Below, piece after piece: positions 18,755 to 64,000 of a stretch of DNA of 64,000 nucleotides (positions within the stretch are counted from its first letter, which is position 1; each line of letters opens with the position of its first letter). Under the pieces are notes generated by a model. That model was not told the DNA's origin and did not search any database. It was given only the letters and a program-made list of their open reading frames with translations. Both the position numbers and the translations under genes were made by a program. This DNA comes from Liolophura sinensis (lineage: Eukaryota; Mollusca; Polyplacophora; Chitonida; Chitonidae): contig NC_088303.1 in NCBI RefSeq assembly GCF_032854445.1, positions 35,755,265-35,819,264 on the forward strand, read 5' to 3'.

Positions 18755-19568
18755 CGACCGTTTTTCTAAGGAATTTGTACTGTCCGGTATAGAAAACAAT
18801 ACATTTGAATCTGGGGATAAAAATTATCGCCAAATTTAAGGCACAGCGATGGGTACCAACCTACGCTACTTTAGTATTAGGATACTTAGAGCAAAAGCTC
18901 TACAGTTAAATTGAAAATAACTACCGACGTAATATATCGAAATTCGTCCAAGAGTCATTCAAAAGGTTTTTAGATGATTGTTTTATCATTTGGGATCAGC
19001 GAAAAGGCAATATAATAGATCTTTTTACTGCCTTAAACAATTTGGACCCAAATATCAAATTCACGTTAGAAACTAGTCACGATAAAATACCTTTCTTAGA
19101 CATTCTTATTACTCTCAAAGGGAGTAATGAGATAATATCAGATATTTTCTACAAACCGACCGATACAAAACAATTCCTAGACTATAGATCCTGCCACCCA
19201 CGTCACACAAAAAATCAATTCCCCTTTACTCTTGCGAGACGAATTTGCACAATCGTACCTAAAAAAAAACTCCGACAAATCAGATTATCTGAATTAAAGA
19301 CTTTTCTATTAATGAGGCATTATCCAAAAGAAATAATAGACATCGGTATTGACAAAGCAAACAAAATTGATATTTCAGTTTTAAGGACCAGCAAACCAAC
19401 TTCTAACACCGACTCGCATTCATTTATATGCACTCATAACCCTGACAATTTCAACTCCTTTCCCCTTATCTTCAACAACCGACCACTACTAGAATCAAAT
19501 GATCGTCTCTCTAAAACTTATAAACGGTAAAAGTCAGGCTCCCAATCTTAAGAAACTTTTATTTTTCA
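18755..19568 (+). pseudogene. Penelope-like retroelement fragment, RT domain
   Basis: The reverse transcriptase core is recognisable: GTAMGT (18856 on), RFLDDCFIIWD with the catalytic DD pair, NNLDPNIKFTLE, IPFLDILITL, FYKPTDTKQFLDYRSCHPRH and LARRICTIV, the signature set of Penelope-like elements. The largest open piece is 19042-19530. A frame change after GTAMGT, a stop just before it, and another frame change near 19515 (NGKSQAPNLKKLL continues in a second frame) show it is dead. It lacks its own GIY-YIG endonuclease and its 5' end. Confidence 0.85.
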
Positions 19569-24139: not shown

Positions 24140-24392
24140 TCCGAATGCAGTGTACTAGCGCAGCGTAATGACCCAGGAGTCTCTCACCAATGCGGTCGCT
24201 GTCAGTTCAAGTCCAGCTAATGCTGGCTTCCTCTCCGGTTGTACGTGGGAAGGTCTGTCAGCAACCTGCGGATGGTCGTGGGTTTCCCCCGGGCTCTGCC
24301 CGGTTTCCACCCACCATAATGCTGGCCGCCGTCGTATAAGTGAAATATTTATGGGTACGGCGTAAAACACAAATCAAATAAATAAATAAAGA
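24140..24392 (+). mobile_element. SINE family A, near complete
   Basis: Truncated tRNA-like head, CTCACCAATGCGGTCGCTGT, CAGCAACCTGCGGATGGTCG, AATGCTGGCCGCCGTCGTAT, GGGTACGGCGTAAAACAC and (AAAT)n tail. A good reference copy for the family in this window. Confidence 0.92.
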
Positions 24393-30028: not shown

Positions 30029-35570
<5,542 letters not shown>

Positions 35571-36275: not shown

Positions 36276-36378
36276 CGAGTAGTATACAGAATAGGGGTTC
36301 TGGCACACCCTCCCCCTGGGGCCCTCCCCAGAAAAAAATAGAGGCCCCAGCCGAGGGTCTGATGGCTGTCGAAATTTC
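36276..36378 (+). repeat. Left terminal inverted repeat of the virus-like element
   Basis: Runs from CGAGTAGTATACAG through a GC-rich core (GGTTCTGGCACACCCTCCCC) to the inner end TGTCGAAATTTC. It matches the reverse complement of 42349-42461 with few differences: a 3-bp TAG unit and a 7-bp GCCCCCA unit missing on this side, and a handful of substitutions. Confidence 0.92.
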
Positions 36379-37029
36379 CTATTAGAGAGACACCACCACT
36401 AGGCATTCGACGATATTTGCACAACGGCGCGTACAATGACCAATCACCAAGAAGCACGAGCACTACGGGCGGAGTATGAGACGCTCATAGGCGTGCGGCC
36501 TAGGTACCCACGGTCCCGCATTGCCTTGGAAGAATTGCAGGAGTTCCTCGACAGGTATAAAACGGCTGGGGAGCAAGACAACATGCCAAAGAGTCTCAAT
36601 AATTGCCGGTGGCTTCTCATTGGTTCCACGGAGCTCTGTGGTAAGAGTTGTCTGGGAGAGTACCGCGGCTTCCACCTATACCGTCTGCGGAAAGGTCCTG
36701 GCACCCAGCCATGTATTCGCTGTGGTCGGGGCGTTAAAAACCAATTTCGGCTTTGCGGGGTCTGTGGATATCATAATGTCCAGTCGCGTGAAAGGCATCG
36801 GAGGCGCAAGGCTTTCTTGGACGAGTTAAAACGGCTGGCGGCTATCGAAATTTCCTGTTAGAGAGACACCACCACTAGGCATACGACGATATTGCACAAC
36901 AGCGAGCACAAACAGCTATCGAAATTTCCTATTAGACACCACCACTTGGCATACCTCGAGATTGCACAACGGCGAGCACAAACAGCTATCGAAATTTCAT
37001 ATTGGATAGGCACCGCCACTAGGCATACA
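36364..37029 (+). promoter_or_regulatory. Four copies of a ~70-bp leader module within the element
   Basis: Copies start at about 36364, 36841, 36915 and 36985. Each begins with GCTATCGAAATTTC (or TGTCGAAATTTC) and runs through ACACCACCACTAGGCATA and ATTGCACAACGGCGAGCACA. The first begins in the inner end of the left TIR and leads into the 36436 gene; the last three are in tandem and lead into the 37030 gene. The inner end of the right TIR carries the same motif facing the 42315 gene. I infer promoter or protein-binding sites; the sequence alone does not show which. Confidence 0.5.
36436..36861 (+). CDS. Element gene 1: small zinc-ribbon protein, 141 aa
   Basis: The N-terminal ~45 residues (ARALRAEYETLIGVRPRYP, RIALEELQEFLDR) are helical and basic. 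A putative zinc ribbon follows: CIRCGRG and LCGVCGY about 15 residues apart (C-x2-C...C-x2-C, residues ~94-112), then a basic tail rich in Arg. The start ATG follows the first leader copy by about 10 bases. The last codons (AIEISC) are encoded by the start of the second leader copy, so gene end and repeat overlap. The N-terminal block recurs in the next gene. The ribbon suggests nucleic-acid binding, but I cannot assign a function. Confidence 0.6.
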   Translation: MTNHQEARALRAEYETLIGVRPRYPRSRIALEELQEFLDRYKTAGEQDNMPKSLNNCRWLLIGSTELCGKSCLGEYRGFHLYRLRKGPGTQPCIRCGRGVKNQFRLCGVCGYHNVQSRERHRRRKAFLDELKRLAAIEISC

Positions 37030-37816
37030 ATGAAACATCATCAAAAAGCGCGAGCACTACGGGAGGAGTTTGAGACGCTCCTAGGTGTGCGGCCCAAGTA
37101 CACACGGTCCCGCATTGCCTTGGAAGAACTGCAGGGGATCCTCGACAGGAATAAAACGGCTGTGGCTGGGTTGAAGCGGCTGCAAGACAGCAAGAACTCC
37201 CGAAGTAACGAGGAGTTGAAGCAAGACGTCAGTTGGGGGAGGTCCCTGATGATGATAATAATAAAGCCTTGCGGAGCGAGATCGAAGACCGGATAAGGAA
37301 TCTCGAGGACGAGAGGGTGGCCCGGCTCGAAGCAGCCTCTTTAACGGGCGAAGCCCTGCGCACGCAAATACACCGCATCAAGCAGACGATCGATCGCATC
37401 CTACACAAGGATACCACTCTGGCCGAGCGCGTCCGCACCCTCTTCCGGGAGCAGGGAATAACCGTGGTCTCCATTCTCACGGCAATTGGGATGGCGATCT
37501 CGACACTGGGGCTAGCGATAAAGTTGGAGCTGACTGGTGGGTTCGGCGGGGGCATCCAGCCAACACCACCTCCACCCGACGGGCGTGGTCCTAAAGAATG
37601 GGTGAAAAAGCATCTCCAGTCCCTGGCGCGCGCCCTTGGCAAGCTGACTGGGAAGGCTGCCGCTGCGATTCCGGGTATTATTGGAAGTATCGTGTCCTGG
37701 CTACTGAAGCAGCTGGGTGGTTGGCCGATAATGTCTGGGCTCTAGTCATCGCAGTAGATGGCCTAATGCTCGTGGCTGTTCGCAATTATTTAACGCATAG
37801 TCCACAGCAGCAGTAA
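37030..37816 (+). pseudogene. Element gene 2: N-terminal block of gene 1 joined to a coiled-coil/membrane protein, two frame changes
   Basis: From ATG 37030 the first ~60 residues repeat gene 1's N-terminus (ARALREEFETLLGVRPKY). The frame then ends in a short tail, while another frame opens at ~37233 with a charged helical region (DNNKALRSEIEDRIRNLEDE, residues rich in Glu/Arg), then FREQGITVVSILTAIGMAIS, a hydrophobic segment, a Pro-rich linker and an amphipathic stretch (WVKKHLQSLARALGKL). That frame stops at 37745, but a strongly hydrophobic continuation (WALVIAVDGLMLVAV) lies in a third frame to 37816. The simplest reading is one membrane-associated gene broken by two indels. Its end overlaps the convergent gene 3 by 27 bases. 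Function unknown. Confidence 0.6.
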
Positions 37817-39103
37817 GCCGATACCAACCCCAGCGACGGCGATGGCTGTCTTCTCCGTATCGTGATTCTTTCCTGTGGTGGGCGGTGGGACGCTTTCTTG
37901 TAGCTCAACGAGGGAAAGTGGTGGGACGCTTTCTTGTGGATCAACGTGGGAAGGTGGGGCGCTTTCTTGTGGCTTAATGATCCCGTGGAAAGGTGCGCGC
38001 TTGTGCAAAGTGGGTGGTACTTTAGCGTTCACACCCTCATTGGCGCCTAGCTTCTGGTCCTCTGTGGCCACGACGATTTTGTTGTTGTAGTTCGCCACAT
38101 GGCCGATCTGCAGAAGCATGTCGCTGGGGGCCATATATAGGCCTATGCCATACACAAAGTCTACAGCGCTCCCGGCATACTGTAGCACGTCCTGGTAGCG
38201 TTTGATAGCAGACGGAAGGTCGATCGGAGAGGAAATAGCGTCTTTAACGTTCGCGGCAAACTGTTTTTGCGCGTCGAAGGCTGTGCCCGTGCCTAGAATA
38301 CGCGCTCTTGTTTGCGCTTGGGCGCCTAGAATAGCCCACACGTATGTCCGGATGGAATCGTTTAGGCGCTCCACGCCTGGCTGCGTGAATCCTTGGGATG
38401 TGCCGGCAATGAACGACGCCCAAGCCTCCTCGGCGTCCTGCTGGATATATTCGACGTGGAGCGCTGTAGGCTTTCTAGAGAACGACATCCTGCTCGGATC
38501 GAAGGTCCCATCGCCAACGGGGCTGTAGCCCGTTCTCGTGATATAGTAATAAGCCACTCTGAGGCCGTGATTCACCCCCCTGCGCCTCCAGTCTGTGTGC
38601 TTATCTACGTGGAATTCCCTACAAATCCTCTCATAGGCCCTCTCGTCGTGGGGGTTTCTGAATGCCGCCCACGCTCTGTCTTGCGGCAGGGGGGCCTGGA
38701 TCTCTTCCAAGATCCGCCTAACTTGGTAATACACATGGAACGTGTACAGGGCCCTTATTTGTTGGTCGGGGGCGAGAAGATGGTCTTTTACAGAGACGCC
38801 GCAGCCCGTGGTTGCGCACCAGACCGCGAAGTTCACTTGGTTCTGCTAGAATTGCATAGGATTGGTGTTCCAGGCCCGAACAATGTGATTGCTGGTTATC
38901 TGTGGCAGCCGGTACTTGGCCAACACATCTGTGAACTGGACTGGAAAGGCCTTCTTTTCATCGATGTAGATGTTAAATCGCGTGAGCTGCTCTGCGTGGG
39001 TTTGGATACTATGAAATGCCCCGGCCTTGTAAGCGGCCTCTCTATTGAACCTGTAAGCCTCGCTGTTCATCGTGGTTAAAATGTTCATCACATTGACTGA
39101 CAT
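37790..39103 (-). pseudogene. Element gene 3: large tail-anchored protein with one in-frame TAG
   Basis: A single minus-strand frame of 438 codons from ATG 39103, interrupted only by TAG at 38846-38848 (about residue 86) and continuing in the same frame to TAA at 37790. The body is mixed and soluble, with WCATTGCGVS just after the stop, a long alpha-rich middle, and GIGLYMAPSDMLLQIG near residue 320. It ends in three imperfect Pro-rich repeats (PQESVPP-type, encoded by 37880-37975) and a C-terminal membrane helix (AIAVAGVGIGLLLLW). The shape fits a structural or membrane-anchored virion-like protein, but I recognise no named family. The single stop suggests recent decay; readthrough is possible but unsupported. 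Confidence 0.6.
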
Positions 39104-39740
39104 TCTAAATGGGGGACAGCACACGCTGCCTCATGCCCTTAACAACCTCGACAGCCGCCTTAAAACCGCCCTTCGCGAGATAACATTCTACCCAGCCTGG
39201 GTGAATATCCAAACCGGAGTGGGCTTCTTGCTTGAGGGCAAACGTGTTGAAGTGCCGGCGGGCTACTACAATGTTTGTACGCTGGACATGGATATATTCC
39301 GCCCGCATGGGATTTCTCTGGGATTGAATGAAGCCACGGGCCGCTTAGTCCTTACCCTCCCTAGAAATACCTTCATAACGCTCCAAGAGCTTGCCCCCAT
39401 CTTAGGGTTCTCCGACGGGATTGCGCCCATAGGGGGGACTATGGAGGGTGAAAATCTACCTAACTTGGTCACACACAAAGAAGTCTTCGTGCATTTGGAT
39501 GAACTGAGCACCTCAGAAAACGTGAGAATAACCTCAGATTTCGGTGGCGGTTCAACACTACTTCAGGCCGTCGCCGTGACTGGTGAAGGGATAAACTGCG
39601 GGAAGACGGTTTCATTTCCCAACCCACAGTACAAAGCCTTGCGCGACGACTATATAACGCAATTGACCGTGGCACTTTTGGATAAAAACAGCAAGTATAT
39701 TAATGTGGGATACCTTAGTGCTACCCTAGAAATACAATGA
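39081..39740 (+). CDS. Element gene 4: beta-rich protein, 219 aa, paralogue of gene 5
   Basis: Starts MFITLTD and aligns along its whole length with residues 60-270 of gene 5: TGVGFLL, GISLGLNEATG, ITLQELAPILGFS, EVFVHLDEL, STLLQAVAV, SFPNPQYKAL, and a C-terminal LTVALLDK...SATLEI block. It lacks gene 5's N-terminal module. The start overlaps the divergent gene 3 start by 23 bases; the stop TGA overlaps the next ATG as ATGA. Alternating hydrophobic beta strands and duplication suggest a capsid or spike-type component; that is inference only. Confidence 0.65.
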   Translation: MFITLTDILNGGQHTLPHALNNLDSRLKTALREITFYPAWVNIQTGVGFLLEGKRVEVPAGYYNVCTLDMDIFRPHGISLGLNEATGRLVLTLPRNTFITLQELAPILGFSDGIAPIGGTMEGENLPNLVTHKEVFVHLDELSTSENVRITSDFGGGSTLLQAVAVTGEGINCGKTVSFPNPQYKALRDDYITQLTVALLDKNSKYINVGYLSATLEIQ

Positions 39741-40549
39741 GTATGGAGGACGCAGTCGGTACCAGGTCTGCGTGTCTGTCTTTAAGCGACTTGGCAGATG
39801 TGTCGGAGTTCGAATTAAAAGGCCAGGAAGGTAAAATCTACGCCTTCGAGTTTAAAAATGGTAAGTACATCCGCAAAAATATTGCGGGGAGGCTAGCAGA
39901 ACCTGCTTCGAAGTTCATCACACTTACTGACGCTCCAAATGGGAAACAGCAAGGGCTGACTTTAATCCTTAACAACCTCGACGGCCGCCTTAAAGTCGCC
40001 CTTCGCAAGATAACTTTCTACCCGAACTCGATGCATATCCCCACCGGAGTGGGCTTCTTGCTTGATGGCGAACGTGTTGAAGTGCCGATGGGCGACTACA
40101 ATCTCTGTAACCTGAAAAAGGCTATGTTCCGCCCGCGTGGGGTTTCTCTGGAAGTAAATGAAGCTACGGGCCTTGGCCTCCCTAAAAATTCCATCATAAC
40201 GCTCCAAGAGATTGCCCCCATCTTAGGGTTCTCCAACGGGAGTAAGCTCATAAGGGGGGTTATGGAGGGTGATAATCTACCTAAATTGGTCACACGCACA
40301 GAAGTCTTCGTGCATTTAAATGAACTGAACACCTCAGAAAACGTGAGAATAACCAAAGCTTCCACACTACTTCAGGCCATCACCGTGACTGATCTAGGGG
40401 AAAAGTGCTGGAAGACGGTTTCATTTCCCAACCCACAGAACAAAGCCTTGCTCGCCGAAAATATAACGCACTTTACCATAACGCTTTTAGACAAACACGG
40501 CGAGTATATAACTGGAGGAAAGTTCAGAGCTAGCCCAGAAATACAATAA
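39737..40549 (+). CDS. Element gene 5: beta-rich protein, 270 aa, with N-terminal module
   Basis: Residues ~14-50 form a small module (LSLSDLADVSEFEL, GKIYAFEFKNGKYIRK) that reappears at the start of gene 6. Residues 60-270 are a paralogue of gene 4, with compensating small indels that keep the frame. This open frame is the best preserved of the longer genes. It begins inside the stop codon of gene 4 (ATGA), and its TAA is followed by the gene 6 ATG after 2 bases. Such packing is unusual for animal genes and typical of compact viral or plasmid genomes. Structural role inferred, not shown. Confidence 0.65.
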   Translation: MSMEDAVGTRSACLSLSDLADVSEFELKGQEGKIYAFEFKNGKYIRKNIAGRLAEPASKFITLTDAPNGKQQGLTLILNNLDGRLKVALRKITFYPNSMHIPTGVGFLLDGERVEVPMGDYNLCNLKKAMFRPRGVSLEVNEATGLGLPKNSIITLQEIAPILGFSNGSKLIRGVMEGDNLPKLVTRTEVFVHLNELNTSENVRITKASTLLQAITVTDLGEKCWKTVSFPNPQNKALLAENITHFTITLLDKHGEYITGGKFRASPEIQ

Positions 40550-40551
40550 GT

Positions 40552-41376
40552 ATGGTGGATGCAGCCGGTCCCAGGTCTGCGTGCCTGTCTTTAAGCGACT
40601 TGGCAGATGTGTCGGAGTTCGAACTTCAAGATCAGGAAGGTAAAATCTACGCCTTCGAGTTTTAAAGTGGCAAGTACATCCGCAAAAAGATTCCGGGGAA
40701 AGCAGAACCTGCCACGTTTGATTCCCTTCAAGATGTCTCATCCTCTGTAGAGCAAAATCGCAGGTCACCGTCTGAGGTAATTGAAGAACAAAAACTCTCT
40801 TTAATTCGCTTTGAAGACCGCTTTGTTCTTGCCAGAGCTCGCGACCCCGATTGATTTATAGATGTGAAGGTGACCCCGATGACGGTCCAGGCCGCTAGTG
40901 GCGTGGTGAAAAAAGTTTTCAACTCCGGAGCCTCTTTCATATCGTGGGTACCAGCCAGCGCCTGTCATGTATCTTCGGGTGTAAGAGGTTACTTCACACT
41001 ATCTGCGGCGCCTGGTGTAGATCCCTTGCGTCTTGCCGCGCAAACCGATTTTAAACCCTCACTACTACTATCCCCTGGATCTATACTTATCTTCAACCTC
41101 ATACTTGGCGCGGCCGAACAACGCCGTTGCACTTTGATTACCGGGGTTAAAATAAGGTGGCCTGCGGAGCACGATACAAAGGATCTCAGACTGATGATCA
41201 AATTACTGGCCCAGGGCGAACCAATCATCCGGAGCTCTCTCGAGGATATAAGAGTCGTCATAGGGGGCGTTTTAAATCTCGATGCAATCAATTTAGAGTG
41301 CGGTATACGCCTTCGCCGCTTTCGTGTTAGTATTCCCGATGACGATTTAGAGCTTACTGACGTTGTTGATTCGTAG
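40552..41376 (+). pseudogene. Element gene 6: shares gene 5's N-terminal module, two in-frame stops
   Basis: One frame of 275 codons from ATG 40552 to TAG 41376, interrupted by TAA at 40663 and TGA at 40852. The first ~45 residues are nearly those of gene 5 (LSLSDLADVSEFEL; GKIYAFEF), but everything after is different: a polar linker, then a beta-rich domain of ~170 residues (SGASFISWVPASACHVSSG, SPGSILIFNLILGAAEQRR, RVVIGGVLNLDAINLECGI). The open part from 40855 would otherwise look like an independent 170-residue protein without an ATG. Function unknown. Confidence 0.6.
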
Positions 41377-41386
41377 GACGGACAAT

Positions 41387-42055
41387 ATGGGACGACTGTA
41401 CCCGGCGATCTCGGATGAAGACCCGACAATTACTGATGACCACCCCTTGACCCCGACCGCGCTGATGGTTGAAAACCACCCGGAGGGCGTGGCGCACGCC
41501 CATCGCCTGCAGTATATCAGCGAAATACAGAGGCAGCTTGAATCTGAGGTAGATCTCCGCCGGGCCTTGTACAAAAAGTACCGGCGCGGTGTCTTAACCG
41601 CCGAGGCCCTTGATTCGGCCATGCTCACGGCCGGTTTGGGACTAGGGGTTGCAGGTGCGGGACTACTCGCAACAATAATTCTAGCCCCTGCTGTCTTGGC
41701 TATGGAATCTGCGGCCATAGCTTGCGGTGTCTTAAATGCCGCCGTAAAATTCGTTACCCACCGACTTCACGCAAAGGCCAAGAAACATAACGATATACGG
41801 CTGTTGGCTGAGGCCAAACTTAACAGCATCCGTGCGCAGGTATCTACGGCATTATCTGATGGTGTTATTTCGGACGTAGAGTACAGGCAAGTCGTTCAGG
41901 AGCTCCAGAACTACTCTGATCTGAAGCAGGAGATACGCGCTAAGTCTCGTAAGACATTCAACGCCGTAGAGATCGATGAAAGGATGAAAAAACATCTTAT
42001 AGATCGCGGCCGAAAACTAGCTCGGCAAGAGCTAAAAAACGCTCTTTCCGAATGA
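41387..42055 (+). CDS. Element gene 7: glycine-rich membrane-hairpin protein, 222 aa
   Basis: From ATG 41387 (MGRLYPAISDED): an acidic N-terminus, a helical region with YKKYRRG at ~65, then a glycine-rich hydrophobic stretch (LTAGLGLGVAGAGLLATIIL and the following ~25 residues) able to form a membrane hairpin, and a charged coiled-coil C-terminal half (HAKAKKHNDIRLLAEAKL). The start lies 10 bases after gene 6's stop. The stop is 11 bases from the convergent gene 8. The frame is intact. A membrane-active accessory protein is plausible; no named family is recognised. Confidence 0.62.
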   Translation: MGRLYPAISDEDPTITDDHPLTPTALMVENHPEGVAHAHRLQYISEIQRQLESEVDLRRALYKKYRRGVLTAEALDSAMLTAGLGLGVAGAGLLATIILAPAVLAMESAAIACGVLNAAVKFVTHRLHAKAKKHNDIRLLAEAKLNSIRAQVSTALSDGVISDVEYRQVVQELQNYSDLKQEIRAKSRKTFNAVEIDERMKKHLIDRGRKLARQELKNALSE

Positions 42056-42066
42056 TGTTCTGGGGG

Positions 42067-42315
42067 TTAGGGTTGTTGCCTCATTAGCTCGGGCAGCAGC
42101 CAGTTTTCATAATACTGCCGGATTGGCTCGGGGTGATCTACCGAGGCGCACACGTCGTTGGTGAAGAGCTTCAGCACAAGCAGCCGGCCCGCGTTGACGC
42201 GTCCGTCTCCAAACATGCTGTGGGTGACTTCTTTGTAGCCTCGCAAGTCTTGCACCGTACCGACTAACTTCGCCCAAATAGGCTGGCTGGTCGTTTCCAT
42301 CGTGGGAGATCCCAT
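42067..42315 (-). CDS. Element gene 8: small protein, 82 aa
   Basis: The ATG at 42315 lies 34 bases inside the right TIR, and the gene reads inward, mirroring gene 1 at the left end. It is soluble and mixed-charge (WAKLVGTVQDLRGYKEV, SMFGDGRVNAGRLLVLKLF) with no membrane segment. An overlapping frame from 42325 gives 72 residues of low-complexity composition and is less convincing. No family recognised. Confidence 0.45.
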   Translation of the reverse strand: MGSPTMETTSQPIWAKLVGTVQDLRGYKEVTHSMFGDGRVNAGRLLVLKLFTNDVCASVDHPEPIRQYYENWLLPELMRQQP

Positions 42316-42348
42316 GATTATTCATTGTATTCGCTGTATACTTAAAAA

Positions 42349-42461
42349 GAAATTTCGATAGCCATCAGACCCTCGGCTGGGGGCTGGGGCCTCTATTTTG
42401 TTCTGGGGAGGGCCCCAGGGGGAGGGTGTGCCAGAACCCCTATTCTGTATACTACTACTCG
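42349..42461 (-). repeat. Right terminal inverted repeat of the virus-like element
   Basis: Reverse complement of the left repeat. The outer end is ...CTGTATACTACTACTCG and the inner end GAAATTTCGATAGCC. Flanking bases on the two sides (TATAATT on the left, TCTGGAT on the right) do not form a direct repeat, so the exact boundary and target duplication remain open. Confidence 0.92.
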
Positions 42462-43108: not shown

Positions 43109-43545
43109 CTGTAAAGTACTTATTATTCGCTGGAATTTATTTTCGCGGATTTTCTGCAAAAATATGTTCGCGGGAATTAAATTGCGCGCATTTCGGAAAA
43201 TACTGAAAAACAGATCTTAAAATTTTCCAAGATATAATATGGCCGAAATATTTATTTATTTATTTGATTGGTGTTTTACGCCACACTCAAGAATATTTCA
43301 CTTACACGACGGCGGCCAGCATTATGGTGGGTGGAAACCGGGCAGAGCCCGGGGGAAACCCACGACCATCCGCAGGTTGAAACAGACCTTCCCACCCTGG
43401 CAAAGATTTCACTTCATTATTCTACTACCTGTAGTATATGATTCAATATTGGATATTTTATTGGCTGGAATTTTTTTTCGCGCTAAAATATTGCCCGCGA
43501 AATCCGCCAAAAATTAGTTCCACGCAAAAATTAAGTACTTCACAG
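43109..43545. mobile_element. MITE with TA target duplication, carrying a nested SINE
   Basis: Terminal inverted repeats CTGTAAAGTACTTATTATTC (left) and the inverse of TTAAGTACTTCACAG (right) are flanked by TA on both sides (43107-43108, 43546-43547), as for Tc1/mariner-type elements. Interior sequence next to both ends is rich in TTCGCG/CGCGAA. A minus-strand SINE occupies about 43235-43402, so the MITE proper is ~270 bp. Confidence 0.72.
43235..43402 (-). mobile_element. SINE family A, 3' part, nested in the MITE
   Basis: (TTTA)n tail, then inverse of GAGT...GGCGTAAAACACC, the GGCGGCCAGCATTATGGTGG block and the CCACGACCATCCGCAGGTTG block; truncated before the tRNA head. Confidence 0.85.
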
Positions 43546-50726: not shown

Positions 50727-50987
50727 GGGGCCTCCGTGGGGGAGGGGTTTAGTGCACCAGTGCGACGCAATGACCTAGGAGCCTCTCAACAATGCGGTCA
50801 CTGTGAGTTCAAGTCCAGCTTTGCTGGCTTCCTGTATGTGGGAAAGCCTGCAGCAACCTGCGGATGGTCGTGGGTTTTCCCCAGGGTTTTCTGCCGTGTT
50901 TCCTCCCACCATAATGCTGGCCGCCATTGTATAAGCAAAATATTTTTGAGTACAGCGTAAGACACCAAGCAAATAAATAAATAAAAA
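50727..50987 (+). mobile_element. SINE family A, near complete, upstream of DHRS1
   Basis: GGGGCCTCCGTGG head, CTCAACAATGCGGTCACTGT, GTTCAAGTCCAGC (B-box), CAACCTGCGGATGGTCGTGG, ATAATGCTGGCCGCCATTGT and (AAAT)n. It lies 345 bp before the DHRS1 ATG. Confidence 0.92.
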
Positions 50988-51097: not shown

Positions 51098-51331
51098 ATC
51101 TGAAGAGACTGCATGAGTGAATTACCCAAGCCACATATTTGCTATGTGAGGAGAGGTTGACTTATTTTGGAGTTTTGGGATCTATATGAACTCTTGCGTA
51201 ATGGTTTATGTAAACCGTTGACCAAATCTACATGGTATCTGTACAATTGTCAGTGTAGTTTACGTAGTTTAATTTGCCTTAATTTTCATACTCTAGTTTT
51301 TTGTTTTTTTTTGTTTTTTGCAGCTTCCAAA

Positions 51332-54300
51332 ATGGCAGCCCCCAAAGCTATGTGTGGAAAAGTGTGTATTGTTACGGGTGCATCTCGCGGGATTGGGCGT
51401 GGCATCGCCCTTCAGTTGGGGGAGGCAGGGGCAGTCGTTTATATCACAGGTAGGCCTAAGGTACCTGATCAAACTAAACAAAGAATCTTGTCCATTTTGC
51501 GAATGAGTGCAGCGGTTAGCTCAAGGCACACCTACATATATGTAAGTAGCTGTGAAAAAGTTCTTTCGTATCAGCTTGACATTAAAAAACATTTAAATAG
51601 TATGACATTTTTGAATAGCGTGGACAAAGTTCAAATCCACTTGTGGACAACATGCCTCTCTTTCGTTGCCTTACAAAATCTTGTCATCACCCTCTACTAG
51701 AATTGGTTTGCTTAGCATATCAGTATGAAATTTTTATTGATGTTTACTTAACTAGTTGAATGTGCGGTAACTATAGTAAATGGGTGCATTTGAGTGCACA
51801 GAGGATGTCAGGCACTTGACTAATGAGATCGCATGATCATATCCAGCTGTCATGACTTCAGCCGCGGATTTAAACCATTAGATTGTCACGTAACTGATAA
51901 AATGCAGTGATTTACTTGGAGCTTTCCAGTTTCCTCCAGTCAGTACACTGTGTAACGACATTGTAATAAATAATTCAAATGTATGAAGCCATAAGCAGTA
52001 AATAGTAATGAATGAATACAACTGAAGTTCTACTATCATTTGTCCAACTAAGAACTTTCTGAATTACATTACGTAGGTCGCACCCTGGAAACCTCATCAG
52101 GAGATAAAACCAGAGGTTCATTAAAGGCCACTGCAAGGGAGGTAAGTCATGATCATCACATCAGGGCTGTGATGCCTGACGATATGGCATAAAGCCATAA
52201 TCATTCATTCAAAATTTACATGTATGTGCTAGCTTTATAATATATGAACGGTTATGTGTATATGCACATGTACTGTGATCTTTCTGTTTCCACATCACTT
52301 ACATTTACAGTAGAAATGAAAATCCTTCTCGCATAACGTCTTTAGCAACAAGTTTCAGAGTTTTGGTATTTTTTTGTTTAAAGGTTGCAGAGATAGGGAC
52401 ACATGCAAGACCTTTAATTGCTTTTTCTTTTTTAATTTTTAAAATTTTTTTTTAATATTATTGAGGCTGTTAATGTGAAGGTTGGCAAAAAAAGTCTCCC
52501 CTTTTAACTTGTTTAGTTACTAAATAGAGAAGTGCTTGTCAGGTTTGGTGAAATTTTGGGGTTTTTTAGTGCAATTCTGTTTCTCCATTTTGCCATCATC
52601 TGGTTTGCCATCTTGGCTACATGTATCATGTCTTTTGCCCTCTAGGTTATAACCATGGGTGCTGTCTTGGTTACCTTTTTGTAAATACCAACTTGTTCAC
52701 CATCTGGACTTTTATCTTGTTTAATATCGGGACTGTCATCTTTTTGCCGTGTTAATTGCATGCATCCTCTTGACCATCATCTTGAGTATCATCTTGGTTA
52801 TCATCTTTTGTTTACCTTCTTTAGCGTCTAGGTTGTCATCTTGGTTATCATCTTTTTTATCTTCTTTAGCGTCTAGCTTGTCATCTTTGTTATCATCTTT
52901 TGTTTACCTTCTTTAGCGTCTAGCTTGTCATCTTGGTTATCATCTTTTGTTTACCTTCTTTAGCATCTAGCTTGTCATCTTGGTTATCATCTTTTGTTTA
53001 CCTTCTTTAGCGTCTAGCTTGTCATCTTGGTTATCATCTTTTGTTTACCTTCTTTAGCGTCTAGCTTGTCATCTTGGTTATCATCTTTTGTTTACCTTCT
53101 TTAGCGTCTAGCTTGTCATCTTGGTTATCATCTTTTGTTTACCTTCTTTAGCGTCTAGCTTGTCATCTTGGTTATCTTGTTTACCCCCCTGGCTACCAGG
53201 TTATTTACCATCTTGGTTGTCATCTTGGACACAATCTTCATCACCATGTTGTTTGTCATCTTGATTTTCATCCTTCTCGGCATTCATCTCATTTACCATC
53301 TTGGCTATCATCTTCATCTAAGTTAGCATCTTGGCTATCATCTTCCTCTTGGTTACCATGTTGGCTATCATCTTCCTCTTGGTTACCATGTTGGCTATCA
53401 TCTTCCTCTTGGTTACCATCTTGGCTATCATCCTCCTCTGGGTTATCATCTTGGCTATCATCCTCCTCTTGGTTATCATCTTGGCTATCGTCCTCCTCTT
53501 GGTTACCATCTTGACTATCATCCTCCTCTGGGTTATCATCTTGGCTATCGTCCTGCTCTTGGTTATCATCTTGGCTATCATCTTCCTCTTGGTTATCATC
53601 TTGGCTATCATTCTCCTCTTGGTTATCATCTTGGCTATCGTCCTCCTCTTGGTTATCATCTTAGCTATTGTCCTCCTCTTGGTTATCATCTTGACTATCA
53701 TCCTCCTCTTGGTTACTATCTTGGCTGTCATCTTCCTCTTGGTTAACATCTTGGCTATCATCCTCCTCTTGGTTATCATCTTGACTATCATCCTCATCTT
53801 GGTTACCATCTTGGCTGTCATCTTCCTCTTGGTTACCATTTTTGCTATCATCTTCCTCTTGGTTACCATCTTGTTTACGATCTTTGCTATGATATGGGAT
53901 ACCATCTTCATCTAAGCTACCATTTTTTTTATCATCTGTATTACCGGTTTGGGTTTAGTATTATATCATGTATAGTTACAGTTATTTGGTTATGATGACA
54001 GATTGAGGCTCGTGGTGGTCAGTGTATACCAGTACAGTGTGACCACTCTAAAGACGTCGATATTGAGAAACTGTTTGAGAAGGTCAAGCGAGAACAGGAT
54101 GGCCGACTTGATGTTCTTGTCAACAATGCCTACTCTGGAGTGAAGGTAATCCCTTTTTATCCGCACATTGATTAGCTGTTCTGTTGGGAGCTCAGGTGCT
54201 TTAGTCGCACTTTCAGATGTGACACACCTAAATCCAGTTCCTGATAACTTCAGGCTAAAGCCTTATTTCTTGAAATTTCCTTGTCAAATCAAAATAAAAA

Positions 54301-57300
54301 TAAACTCTTCATGCATTTAATTTTTAATATATATATATGTACATGGACATGCACTATTAAAACATTTTCATTTTTCAATTTGTGAGTATATTTATCCAAA
54401 ATAAGATTTTATAAATATCAGTGAATAAGGGAAGAGTTGGGGTGTTCCCACTGTGTCAAACCAGACTAATGCTGAGCTGGCATTTAATTTGATATGCAGG
54501 CATTTCATAGGCCTACTCTGAATTGCCTCCCTTGTTACACAACAGCAACTATGATGTAACATAAATTAGTATTTGACATGTGAAACTATGAGAAGTGGGA
54601 CCTCGCCTATTAAAGCGTGCAGTATGTTGGTGATATGACAGTAAAAAATATTTTCTGGGAAACAGAATGCAAACACATGATATCAGACTTAGATAAGAGT
54701 CGCAGAAATGTGGAGAGATCTTAAGGGCAGTATTTTATATTTTTCAATTTAAGTATATATATTTGATGAAATTGCTAAAGCTGTATTTTGAACAGAACTT
54801 TTAAAATTACTTTCAAATGTATTTTAAAAATACATAGCGTTTACCTAAGGCTCTCCGAATATAAAGCTTACAAAATTAAAATCTGTCTTAAAGTTACGCC
54901 TTCAATTATCTTATGTTGCTTTGACTCTGAAACTTGTTATGCGTAATATTATTAGGGGTTCTACCTCACCACAGCTTTCTCCTGTAACACACTTTTTAAG
55001 CGGGATAGTGACCTCAAGGGAGGTATTTTTGTAGTGGCTCTATTTTGCGTGCTTTTCAAAATTTGCCTTCAAACTTGCCTGTTTCTATGTATTTCACTGA
55101 GGGGGCCATAACTTAACTTGTCTCTCTAGTATTGTCTTCATTAGATGTCTCCGTGTTATTGATAAACTATTGATCTAATTAAAGATATTGAATATTAACG
55201 AATTGGCTAATTTATATTGATTTATTTATTTATTTGATTGGTGTTTTACACTGTACTCAAGAATATTTCATGTGTACGACGGCGGTCAGCATTATAATGG
55301 GAGGATAATTTATATTGAACATCACCTACCTTCTTACAATAGCATACTTTAAAGAACTGCTTGTTGTACCAGATTGGTGAGGAGAAAGCTATTGCAAGGT
55401 TTAATTCATCAATGCAGAATATTGTTTAGAATATTTTAAATGCACTGAACTGTGTGAGACTACTCCAGGTTTTGAACCCTCAGTGATCTCAGAGTCAGGT
55501 ACCTGAAGGCCAGCATTTGACAAAGAGTCCCAATCTCATCTACATGTATTGTCTATCTTTTTCGGTGAGGTGATAATAAATTGTGACAAAGCTATAAGAG
55601 AACATTTACACATATTGTGACATAGACATAAATATCTGCAGACTTTGATGGACAACTATGGAAAGCCGTTCTGGGAGCAGCCAGCCACGGTGTGGGATGA
55701 GGTGAACAATGTGGGACTCAGGTACGTCATGTGTGTGTTGGTGAATGGCAGAGAACGTCAAGTATGTGTTGGGGGAAGGCAGGGTACATCAGGTGGGTGT
55801 TGGGGGAAGGCTGGGTACATCAAGTGGGTGTTGGTGAATGGCAGAGTACATCAAGTGGGTGTTGGGGGAAGGCAGGGTACATCAAGTGTGTGTTGGGGGA
55901 AGGCAGGGTACATCAAGTGGGTGTTGGGGGAAGGCAGGGTACATCAAGTGTGTGTTGGGGGAAGGCAGGGTACATCAAGTGGGTGTTGGTGAGTGGCAGG
56001 GTACATCAAGTGGGTGTTGGGGAAGGCAGGGTATATCAAGTGGGTGTTGGGGAAGGCAGGGTACATCAAGTGGGTGTTGGTGAATGGCAGGGTACATCAA
56101 GTGGGTGTTGGGGAAGGCAGGGTACATCAAGTGGGTGTTGGGGGAAGGCAGGGTACATCAGGTGGGTGTTGGGGGAAGGCAGGGTACATCAAGTGGGTGT
56201 TGGGGAAGGCAGGGTACATCAAGTGGGTGTTGGGGGAAGGCAGGGTACATCAAGTGGGTGTTGGGGGAAGGCAGGGTACATCAAGTGGGTGTTGGGGAAG
56301 GCAGGGTACATCAAGTGGGTGTTGGTGAATGGCAGGGTACATCAAGTGTGTGTTGGGGGAAGGCAGGGTACATCAAGTGTGTGTTGGTGATTGGCAGGGT
56401 ACATCAAGTGGGTGTTGGTGAGTGGCAGGGTACATCAAGTGGGTGTTGGGGAAGGCAGGGTACATCAGGTGGGTGTTGGGGGAAGGCAGGGTACATCAAG
56501 TGGGTGTTGGGGAAGGCAGGGTACATCAAGTGGGTGTTGGGGGAAGGCAGGGTACATCAAGTGGGTGTTGGGGGAAGGCAGGGTACATCAAGTGGGTGTT
56601 GGGGAAGGCAGGGTACATCAAGTGGGTGTTGGTGAATGGCAGGGTACATCAAGTGTGTGTTGGGGGAAGGCAGGGTACATCAAGTGTGTGTTGGTGATTG
56701 GCAGGGTACATCAAGTGGGTGTTGGTGAGTGGCAGGGTACATCAAGTGGGTGTTGGGGAAGGCAGGGTACATCAAGTGGGTGTTGGGGAAGGAAGGGTAC
56801 ATCAAGTGGGTGTTGGTGAATGGCAGGGTACATCAAGTGGGTGTTGGGGAAGGCAGGGTACATCAGGTGGGTGTTGGTGAATGGCAGGGTACATCAAGTG
56901 GGTGTTGGGGAAGGCAGGGTACATCAAGTGGGTGTTGGTGAATGGCAGGGTACATCAAGTGGGGTGTTGGGGAAGGCAGGGTACATCAAGTGGGTCTTGG
57001 TGAATGGCAGGGTACATCAAGTGGGTGTTGGGGGAAGGCAGGGTACATCAATTGGTACTTGGGGGAAGACAGGGTACATCAAGTGGGTGTTGGTGAATGG
57101 CAGGGTACATCAGGTGGGTGTTGGTGAATGGCAGGGTACATCAAGTGGGTGTTGGGGAAGGCAGGGTACATCAAGTGGGTGTTGGGGAAGGAAGGGTACA
57201 TCAAGTGGGTGTTGGTGAATGGCAGGGTACATCAAGTGGGTGTTGGGGAAGGCTGGGTACATCAGGTGGGTGTTGGTGAATGGCAGGGTACATCAAGTGG

Positions 57301-58560
57301 GTGTTGGGGAAGGCAGGGTACATCAAGTGGGTGTTGGTGAATGGCAGGGTACATCAAGTGGGTGTTGGGGAAGGCAGGGTACATCAAGTGGGTGTTGGTG
57401 AATGGCAGGGTACATCAAGTGGGTGTTGGGGAAGGCAGGGTACATCAAGTGGGTCTTGGTGAATGGCAGGGTACATCAAGTGGGTGTTGGGGGAAGGCAG
57501 GGTACATCAATTGGTACTTGGGGGAAGACAGGGTACATCAAGTGGGTGTTGGTGAATGGCAGGGTACATCAAGTGGGTGTTGGTGAATGGCAGGGTACAT
57601 CAATTGGTACTTGGGGGAAGGCAGGGTACATCAATTGGTACTTGGGGGAAGGCAGGGTACATCAATTGGTACTTGGGGGAAGGCAGGGTACATCAAGTGT
57701 GTGTTGGTCTTTGGCAGGGTACATCAAGTGGGTGTTGGTCTTTGGCAGGGTACATCAAGTGTGTCTGTTGGGGGAAGGCAGGGTACATCAAGTGTGAGTT
57801 GGGGGAAGGCAGGGTACATCAAGTGTGTGTTGGGGGAGGGCAGGGCACATCAAGTATGTGTTGAGGGAAGGCTGGGTACATCAAGGAGAGATATGTTTTT
57901 GTAGTTAGGCCAGGAGAGATTTGTTTTTGTAGTTAGGCCTTGAAACACCTTGAAATTGAGAACATGCATACTGTCTGATAATAATAATGTGGTTTTACAT
58001 TACTTTACTTAAACTTGTATGACCGTTAATAAATATTTATTCAGAGATTTCTTGAAAATGTGAATACAGGGCCGGGAAAAAAGCCTGTAAGGGCTGTTTA
58101 TACTGGCTTGTTTAAAATCCTACGTCCACAGGAATCATTACATCTGCACAGTGCAAGCAGCTCGTCTTATGGTCCCCCGTAAACAAGGCTTGATTGTCAA
58201 CATCTCTTCAGCTGGTGGCATTGGATATTTTGTCAGCCCTGTATACGGAATTGGAAAAGAGGCTGTAAGTTTACACTGTGTTAAGTGTACCAGGTGTATG
58301 AACGGCTCTCTGTGTGTGCTAAATGATGCTTCTGCTTTAAAATGGAAACTTGAATTCCAAGACCTTTATTGCTTCCTGACTTGGCGCTCCGATTATTAAA
58401 ATGTCAGTATATTGATGTGGCTGAGTGGGGTGTTATGTCTGGGAACTGCAGCATGGCATTTTAGTGAAGCAGCAGCTGTAATACTGCATGATTGCACTGA
58501 ATTTTTAAGTGACCCACTACAAGATCCTTTCAGCCATCGTCTCTTCATCTGTGTTTATAG

Positions 58561-60180: not shown

Positions 60181-62069
60181 GTAAGTTTGCCCATTAAGTC
60201 TTCAAGGGGAGTGAATGTATTCAAGGGTTGCCGGGGAGCGGTTCGGCATCAGCTTTGTAAAATCTCTTAGATGAAATTCAGACAAAGGGAATGTTGCTAA
60301 CTTATGTAATCTGAAAATGAAGAAAGTGTGTGAGATGATAAATTCCATGAGCGAAGGACCAAAATTTCACATATTGGTATATTATATGTTAATATTTTTA
60401 ACTTTGTATGTGTTTTTAGTTCATATTTCCATACTATAGCCCTGGAAAATAGGTAGCTTTATTGGTGTTATGTCACTTCGATTGCACACAATGTATTGGT
60501 CAGTGTGTTAACTCAAATTGTGCTTAATATAAGGCAGTAACATTGCTCAGTAAATCCTCCATCAGTTCTGAGAAACCATGTTTTTACCTTTGGAACTACT
60601 TCCTTAACTAATGCAAAATGACAAACATAATGGAATACTAAGCTTTACTGATAAAAAAAGGAAGACACTTAATACCTTTCTGACTTGGAGGAGAGGTGGT
60701 GAGGGGAGGGACCACAACCTAGAACATTTTCCTTTGTGCTCCTTTCTTTTTATCAATTCTGAAACTTACCAAAATAGCCAAACCATCTGACTTGATAGCT
60801 AATGAATAATAACAAGTGGCCACCTGTGACACAATATATTGAAATTTTCAAGTGAATATCTGATTGGTTGACGAAGATGGTGTGTTCAGTTTGATGTGAA
60901 GACTTTAGCATAGCAGACCAATCAAGGCAGAAAACAAGGTGATATAAAATGGTAGCAGTAGACATACATATAGGTAGTGTCTGGCTTGATTTAATTGAGA
61001 TGTTGCAACAAGGGCACAACGAAAGACACTGAACTTTGCTGACATTTAAGATTGTTCTGTTATTTTTTTTTTTTTTTTCAAGCCCACATCTGAAAATAAA
61101 ATTAAAATATGACAAATTCCAAGTGGCATAAAGAAGGAAATCTTGTGCAGGAGATGGCAAACAGAAGATTACCTTTTGAATATGCAACAGGGACGAGAAT
61201 ACTGTAATACATTCACCAGTAATATAATGTCACAATGAGGAATTGCCAGTTTGTAAGAAGTTAAGACGGACTCGTACAAAGAAAAACAGTCCAAAGTATT
61301 CAATCATGAAATAAATCAGTGTGTAAATCGTGTTTGTAGTTTAAAAGTTGTCATTTAGGACTTCTGTGCCTTAGTCTATGTATAGGTAATCAATTATATT
61401 GTATTCCTGTATAAATCAGGGGTCTGCTAGTGGACTAAGCATCCCCGAGGCCTGGTCCCTTTGCATTGTTTTAATGTGATTGAATATTAAATGTGATGGC
61501 AACACAGCATTTTGAGCAATTCTAGACCTGTGAGGTCTAAAAAAATTGAAAATAACATCACTGCAATCTTCTTTTTTTTTTCTTTTACCTAATTCTGCTT
61601 AAGAAATGGTGTTAGAGGGCATGTAAATTACTTCTGTTTATGCATTTACATTAAAAGTTAGAAAAAAAAACCCTAACTGAGATAAGCTGAAAAGGAGTTG
61701 TATTTTGCTGGTTATGTGTGACCATTAGACAGCTATCACACTGTTGTCGCTGCTCTGGTTTTACTGTCTATGCTGTGTGTCTTCTTTTGATAATTATATC
61801 AAAGTATGTATCTCAACTGCTCTTTGCTGCAACTGGAAATTCGTAGGTCCATTGCGGAGAACTTATTCAACAAGATAAATACCCTGCCCTTGTTTTAGGT
61901 TAAGCAGAATCAGACACAATTTTAGCGTCAGACACAATTTTAGCATCAGACACAGTTTTAAAGCATCTTTGACTGAGATTCTGGAAATTCCATCCCTTTT
62001 TACTTGCGCAAGCGCTGTACAAGGCTTATGCTCAGTAAGACAAGGATTCTTTAATTTAATTCTTTGCCG
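60181..62069. other. Start of the last visible DHRS1 intron
   Basis: Begins GTAAGT after exon 8. I searched for a phase-1 exon continuing after GKCIVKLAT with the expected DPNI-like motif and saw none. Confidence 0.6.
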
Positions 62070-64000
62070 AACACAACCAGGCCTTGTTTGCCTGACCCAA
62101 CCAACCCTTGTTTGCTTGACACAACCAGGCCTTGTTTGCCTGACCCAACCAATCCTTGTTTGCTTGACACAACCAGGCCTTGTTTGCCTGACGCAACCAA
62201 TCCTTGTTTGCCTACAAAACCTGGCCTTGTTTGCCTGACCCAACCAATCATTGTTTGCTTGACACAACCAGGCCTTGTTTGCCTGACCCAACCAGGCCTT
62301 GTTTGCCTGACCCAACCAGGCCTTGTTTGCCTGCAAAACCTGGCCTTGTTTGCCTGATCCAACCAATCCTTGTTTGCCTGCAAAACCTGGCCTTGTTTGC
62401 CTGACCGAACCAATCCTTGTTTGCCTGACACAACCAGGCCTTGTTTGCCTGACACAACCAGGCCTTGTTTGCCTGACCTAACCAATCCTTGTTTGCTCGA
62501 CACAACCAGGCCTTGTTTGCCTGACCCAACCAATCCTTCTTTGCCTGCAAAGCCTGGCCTTGTTAGCCTGATTCAACCAGATTTTGTTTGCTTGACATAA
62601 CCAGGCCTTGTGTGCCTAACACAACCAGGCCTTGTGTGTCTGACACAAACATGTTTTGTTTGCAGAACACAACCAGGTTTTGCTTTCCTGACATATCCAG
62701 GCCTTGTTTGCCTGACCCAACTAATCCTTGTTTGCCTGCAAAACCTGGCCTTGTTTGCCTGACCCAACCAATCCTTGTTTGCTTGACACAACCAGGCCTC
62801 GTTTGCCCGACACAATCAGACCTTGTTTTGCCTTACACAACCAAGTTTTTTTGCCTGTTCAACCAGGTTATGTTTTCCTGGCACAACCAGATTTTGTTTG
62901 CCTGACACAACCAGATTTTGTTTGCTTGACATAACCAGGCCTTGTGAGCCTGACACAACCAGGCCTTGTGTGCCTGACACAAACATGTTTTGTTTGCCGA
63001 ACACAACCAGGTTTTGTTTTCCTGACACATCCAAGCCTTGTTTGCTTGACCCAACCAATCCTTGTTTGCCTGACACAGCCAGACGTTGTTTGCCTGACCC
63101 AACCAATCCTTGTTTGCCTTCAAAACCTGGCCTTGTTTGCCTGACCCAACCAATCCTTGTTTGCTTGACACAACCAGGCCTTGTTTGCTTGACACAACCA
63201 GGCCTTGTGTGCCTGACACTATTAGACCTTGTTTGCCTGACACCACCAATCCTTGTTTGCTCGACACAACCAGGCCTTCTGTGCCTGACATAACCAGGCC
63301 TTGTGTGCCTGACGCAACCATGTTTTGTTTGCCTGACACAACCAAGTTTTGCTTTCCTGACACAACCAGATTTTGTTTGCCTGATACAACCAGATTTTGT
63401 TTGCTTGACATAACCAGGCCTTGTGAACCTGACACAACCAGGCCTTGTGTGCCTGACACAACCAAGTTTTTTTTTTGCCTGATATAACCAGGTTTTGTTT
63501 TCCTGACACAATCAGGCATTGTTTGCCTGACACAACCAAGCCTTGTGTGCCTGACACAACCAGGCCTTGTTTGCCTGACACAACCAGGTTTTGCTTTCTT
63601 GACACATCCAGGCCTTGTGTGCCTGACACAACCAGGTTTTGATTTCTTGACACATCCAGGCCTTGTTGCCTGACCCAACCAACCCTTGTTTGCTTGACCC
63701 AACCAATCCTTGTTTGCTTGACACAACCAGACCTTGTTTGCCTGAGGCAACCAGGCCTTGTTTGCTTGACACAACAAGGCCTTGTTGCTAAACACAACCA
63801 GGCCCTGTTGGTAGACACAAACCAGCCTTGTTTGCCTGACACAACCAGGCCTTGTTTCCCTGACACAACCAGGCCTTGTTGCTAGACACAACCAGGCCTT
63901 GTTGCTAGACACAACCAGGCCTTATTGCTAGACACAACCCAGCCTTGTTTGCCTGACGCAACCTGGCCTTGTTTGCTTGACACAACCAGACCTTGTTTCC
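62070..64000. repeat. 24-bp minisatellite, about 80 copies, reaching the window end
   Basis: Unit ACAACCAGGCCTTGTTTGCC plus TGAC. Variants CCCAACCAATCC, ACAACCAGATTTTG and TGCAAAACCTGGCC recur in blocks, so there is higher-order structure. It sits in the last visible DHRS1 intron. Open frames up to 359 codons arise from the period of 24. Confidence 0.95.

Follow-up and report, generated by a model that had tools for sequence, protein, structure and literature searches.

The window, i.e., the whole 64-kb stretch of DNA that was analysed, contains a 6-kb virus-like element bounded by terminal inverted repeats (TIRs). With a probability of about 0.55, we interpret it as an endogenous, decayed copy of a linear DNA element that was non-autonomous, had ends of the Maverick/Polinton type and would have been copied and inserted in trans. 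This interpretation is favoured by the AGTAGT motif at the tips, an ORF density and a GC content unlike those of the flanks, the lack of any recognised core family, and a longest frame of only 351 codons. A sequence-only reading of the same DNA had described a TIR-bounded, virus-like unit without a recognisable replication or integration enzyme; this description holds, except that the copy is decayed and does not consist of intact packed genes. The satellite, passenger or deletion derivative considered there are still the right set of options, while a wholly undescribed class becomes less likely because the (AGT)n tips tie the ends to the Maverick/Polinton type.

Boundaries and termini of the element

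The element extends from position 36278 to 42459 (6,182 bp); the previously proposed edges at 36276 and 42461 were accurate to within 2 bp without marking the exact ends. Its left TIR (36278–36384, plus strand, 107 bp) starts with (AGT)2 at 36278–36283, and the right TIR (42343–42459, minus strand) ends with (ACT)3 at 42451–42459, its aligned arm covering 114 bp from 42343 to 42456. The local BLAST alignment of the arms (114 columns, 90%) contains four mismatches and an indel of 7 bp; it started exactly at AGTAGT and ran inward, leaving one extra AGT on the right arm and thus a right end that is one ACT unit longer than the left. The outer 75 nt of the arms were 99% complementary when compared without gaps, which rules out a chance inverted repeat and bears out the inverted termini of about 100 bp proposed before. 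The GC content likewise differs from that of the flanks as had been claimed, amounting to 0.521 in the element vs. 0.397 and 0.378 in the 5 kb on either side. Further copies within the 64-kb window were looked for and rejected, the element being present there as a single copy.

The tip motif, (AGT)2 on the left and (ACT)3 on the right, is the most telling feature of the element. In the available text of PMC8097293, (AGT)2//(ACT)2 is given as the commonest end motif among the Mavericks of vertebrates, the repeated units being suggested to permit jumping-back in protein-primed replication (PMC8097293). The motif was reported from vertebrates, and applying it to the present host is an extrapolation. 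The chance of about 1 in 4,096 for a given six-base tip under equal base use has to be read in the light of its post hoc recognition and of at least two other known motif types. Slippage at ends of this kind would be expected to produce the unequal number of units at the two tips.

A search for a 6-bp target-site duplication was negative, as no 6-mer was common to 37 nt of the left and 36 nt of the right flank (the latter including 5 nt still inside the element, its first 5), and the longest match between them was a 5-mer located away from the ends. A CG dinucleotide adjoins both ends of the element, which is expected in 1 of 16 cases by chance and is not significant. TIRs lacking a 6-bp duplication, together with these 2 bp of CG at either end, would also suit a non-autonomous DNA transposon of the cut-and-paste type, with captured viral genes and an AGTAGT tip arisen by coincidence. 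We regard such a transposon as quite improbable in view of the exact (AGT)n tip, the unit number differing between the ends as if by slippage, and the dense viral-style ORFs.

A 14-nt box, GCTATCGAAATTTC, is present in five copies within the element, of which four are exact and one has a single mismatch, including three direct copies on the plus strand between 36841 and 36998, which start at 36841, 36915 and 36985. Elsewhere in the 64 kb, it was found once with two mismatches (mean in shuffled sequences, 0.52). The copies lie close to the inner boundary of each TIR as well as upstream of the ATG codons of A, B and H, suggesting a candidate promoter box; because they are related by duplication and not independent, their count overstates the evidence.

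Coding density, gene layout and decay

The element is densely filled with open frames on both strands, as the sequence-only reading had stated. Nine ATG-started ORFs of at least 100 aa, overlapping antisense frames included, cover 71.6% of its length, whereas 200 first-order Markov control sequences contained a mean of 1.8 such ORFs (maximum 5) covering on average 10.5% (maximum 32.8%). One of these controls held an ORF of 251 aa, compared to 270 aa for the longest in the element, and ORF length alone therefore proves little. The dense two-strand ORFs and the GC step led us to reject an ordinary host gene. The longest stop-to-stop frame of the element amounts to 351 codons, which is too short for an intact pPolB.

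About eight genes are present, in agreement with the number proposed, yet they are not all intact. Because at least three of them (B, C and F) are broken, we regard the copy as a fossil. ORF A (36436–36861, plus strand, 141 aa) carries a 46-aa N-terminal segment that is also found in gene B; this segment is followed in frame by a part that is rich in Cys and resembles a zinc ribbon. The matches of ORF A to PF12773 (E 0.053 with the whole ORF, 0.032 with a piece of it) both fall short of the cut-off. Gene B (37030–37816, plus strand) is broken into parts in three different frames, namely the N-terminal segment at 37030–37296, a coiled-coil-looking and hydrophobic ORF at 37233–37745 and a hydrophobic tail at 37598–37816, which probably derive from a single gene. 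Gene C (37790–39070, minus strand) occupies a single frame of 427 codons including the final stop and ends in a C-terminal hydrophobic stretch; a stop at codon 75 cuts it into the ORFs 39070–38849 and 38845–37790.

The next genes on the plus strand include two tandem paralogues. ORF D (39072–39740) codes for 222 aa from a GTG start (219 aa from the first ATG) and is 64% identical to ORF E (39737–40549, 270 aa), which has an additional N-terminal segment and overlaps with D at the predicted ATGA junction, located at 39737–39740. Gene F (40552–41376) repeats the N-terminal segment of E, contains stops at 40663 and 40852, and continues with an unlike ORF at 40864–41376 (170 aa). ORF G (41387–42055, plus strand, 222 aa from the first ATG) combines a hydrophobic stretch with a charged C-terminus, and ORF H (42067–42315, minus strand, 82 aa) is a small ORF at the right end. 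An ATG at 42325 directly upstream of ORF H lies in a different frame, and ORF H may therefore be damaged as well.

Searches for core genes and relatives

None of the nine ORFs matched a pPolB, integrase, packaging ATPase, protease or jelly-roll capsid family at E values up to 1 in Pfam (where a tenth ORF, 36892–37293, was included), PHROGs or NCBIfam, which agrees with the proposed absence of a recognisable replication or integration enzyme; PHROGs covers viruses of prokaryotes and NCBIfam prokaryotes, and their silence therefore says little on animal viruses. A capsid family was likewise absent from the matches in Pfam and among PDB sequences, and the structure model of ORF E, the capsid candidate, reached a pLDDT of 30.8. 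The best PDB sequence match of D/E, the F piece, the C piece and G had an E value of 0.27 and was judged to be due to chance. An Rfam search of the whole window produced no match.

Several weak family names were also judged to be chance matches, all of them under the cut-offs where such exist. They comprise hypB of NCBIfam (E 0.0015) and tail and virion names of PHROGs (E 0.06–0.09) for gene B, and DUF533 (E 0.0028) and a PHROGs head morphogenesis name (E 0.034) for ORF G. The sole polymerase-named match, the chi subunit of bacterial Pol III (E 0.036), was obtained with ORF G as well. A motif resembling phage tail fibres was suspected in the N-terminal segment shared by E and F; PHROGs and phage searches gave no support for it, and it is not claimed here.

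No relatives were found in viral contigs with single-protein queries, which reach close relatives only and comprised ORFs A, E and G, a piece of B, the long C piece and the 170-aa F piece, but neither ORF H nor the N-terminal part of C. The D/E alignment and the TIR pattern found no relative there either, nor did ORF G among prokaryote genome contigs, and tblastn searches against phages gave no match for the long C piece and the N-terminal segment of E. The lack of any ORF at a curated family cut-off and the chance-level PDB sequence matches would be expected if this were a virus or element of a new class, small but complete, with a replication protein that has diverged past recognition. We consider this highly improbable, since the longest open frame has 351 codons, several ORFs are short or hydrophobic, and the tips already fit Maverick-type priming.

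The only coherent family lead, a suggestive one, is a Bcl-2-like match of ORF H. It was obtained with PF00452 (E 0.004, 18.1 bits vs. a cut-off of 31.4) and TIGR00865, the NCBIfam bcl-2 family (E 0.016, 15.2 vs. a cut-off of 283.35), and falls mainly on the BH1 region, none of the matches reaching a curated cut-off; given that nine or ten ORFs were scanned, an E value of 0.004 is not overwhelming. Among PDB sequences, three BAX chains were matched at E 0.4–0.9, followed by an unrelated Mediator chain at 1.1. A single-sequence structure model of ORF H (pLDDT 47) contains helices at residues 11–26, 28–33, 40–58 and 63–79, and no PDB fold matched this model.

Evolution of the repeated genes

Comparing D with E over 212 codons (after dropping the first three aligned codons) resulted in a dN of 0.226 and a dS of 0.116, i.e., a ratio of 1.95, with 111 differences distributed over the codon positions as 44/37/30; Fisher's test on rounded counts gave a p value of 0.010 for the excess. 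Neutral simulations with three transition biases and 1,000 runs each reached ratios of at least 1.945 in 0.4%, 0.2% and 0% of the runs, and both copies stayed free of stops in 2.7%, 4.0% and 8.3%. D and E have remained open through their 111 differences, compared to a mean of 2.6–3.7 stops in the simulations. Because both the high ratio and the stop-free copies are rare under neutrality, it is probable that D and E evolved as proteins, amino-acid change exceeding silent change.

Attachment proteins can show amino-acid change in excess of silent change, and D and E may by analogy have such a role. The shorter repeats fail to mirror the excess, the N-terminal copies of E and F showing a dN/dS of 0.38 (36 codons) and those of A and B one of 0.74 (46 codons), and they count against an attachment-type interpretation. 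Virion genes of Mavericks are reported to be under strong purifying selection, in contrast to the ratio of 1.95 for the pair studied here.

These genes bear on another possible origin, namely as a stable satellite or as segment two of a bipartite protein-primed virus, laid out like VD2 of Bombyx mori bidensovirus (BmBDV), which would share its ends with a helper and carry only attachment-type and host-modulation genes. According to the available text of PMC4061559, the linear segments of bidnavirids measure 6.5 and 6 kb, and VD2 is proposed to have arisen from the main one through an exchange of genes that preserved the ends; VD2 carries a candidate gene for a receptor-binding minor capsid protein and a potential defence modulator (PMC4061559). 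The size of 6.2 kb, the lack of a visible broken core gene, the tandem paralogues with their dN/dS of 1.95 and the Bcl-2-like ORF would all suit such an analogy. We nevertheless consider it rather unlikely, as no helper was seen and one copy only is present in the window, neither Pfam nor PDB matches (the latter outside genes A and B) included a parvovirus-like or reovirus-like name, and a genomic fossil requires some insertion route. Moreover, the tips of BmBDV are given as GTGTGTGT in that text (PMC4061559), whereas those of the element read AGTAGT. Equally doubtful is a whole lineage of such satellites or second segments belonging to Maverick-like viruses of animals, which would use the protein-primed ends of a helper and carry only diversifying attachment-type genes and a Bcl-2-like death modulator.

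Surroundings of the element

The window is probably genomic DNA of an animal-like host, to judge from an exon-like dehydrogenase piece, minisatellites and interspersed repeats. An interspersed repeat of 145–170 bp occurs in at least four places of the window (24183–24390, 32194–32364, 43251–43395 and 50838–50985), one of them about 800 bp to the right of the element, and its copies are 81–93% alike in inverted pairs among the matches listed. An exon-like ORF at 51161–51700 contains the start of a short-chain dehydrogenase (PF00106, E 1.3e-5, just under the cut-off) and probably belongs to a host gene. A 206-aa ORF at 18910–19530 bears some resemblance to the final portion of a reverse transcriptase from a retroelement, for which Pfam gave no support. 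The regions 55701–57797 and 61863–63921 consist of long minisatellite-like arrays with repetitive open frames and strong GC skew.

Proposed origin and propagation

According to the preferred interpretation as a Maverick-ended element propagated in trans, the protein-primed polymerase and the integrase of a full-length relative would recognise the (AGT)n-tipped inverted repeats, the polymerase copying the element by jumping-back initiation and the integrase inserting it into the genome. Its cargo would be mainly of an accessory or structural type, comprising the two tandem, diverging paralogues, the third gene with their N-terminal segment, the hydrophobic proteins and the Bcl-2-like piece. Because accessory regions flank the core in most vertebrate Mavericks (available text of PMC8097293), the simplest origin would be a larger Maverick-like virus that lost its core gene modules. 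No truncated core gene marking a deletion junction was seen in the element, which speaks against a simple deletion. Also counting against a Maverick-type assignment are the lacking 6-bp duplication, a length of 6.2 kb far under the 12.7–24.6 kb of intact vertebrate Mavericks (PMC8097293, available text), and the lack of any product linked to a Maverick protein.

Since protein-primed ends should work in trans, parasites of Mavericks are to be expected. The terms non-autonomous, satellite or mini Polinton/Maverick were not found in the literature searched, where 'Polinton-derived' does occur. A confirmed gene-rich Maverick parasite in an animal would inform the origin of segmented relatives such as the bidnavirids, while a mere deletion fossil would be of modest interest.

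Comparison with known systems

Adintoviruses are comparable as animal-associated Maverick relatives, some of whose genomes contain duplicated penton genes (PMC11071296); as defined in the available text of PMC11071296, they possess a PolB with an OTU-like domain and a recognisable hexon, whereas neither of these defining genes was recognised here. VD2 of the Bidnaviridae is similar as a linear, polymerase-free segment of about 6 kb with inverted ends and, by analogy, a possible attachment-type and modulator-type cargo; it differs in its tip sequence and shares no detected protein with the element, which is integrated in a genome. Mavericks/Polintons share with the element the TIRs, the repeated short end motif of (AGT)n tips, genes on both strands and the occurrence as a decayed genomic copy. 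They differ from it by a size of about 17 kb compared to 6.2 kb, by their pPolB, integrase, ATPase, protease and capsid proteins, none of which was recognised here, and by a 6-bp target-site duplication. Because its length lies outside the 12.7–24.6 kb of intact vertebrate Mavericks, and tests for the core enzymes and a target-site duplication were negative, the element is not classed as a Maverick, and it behaves as a Maverick-ended passenger.
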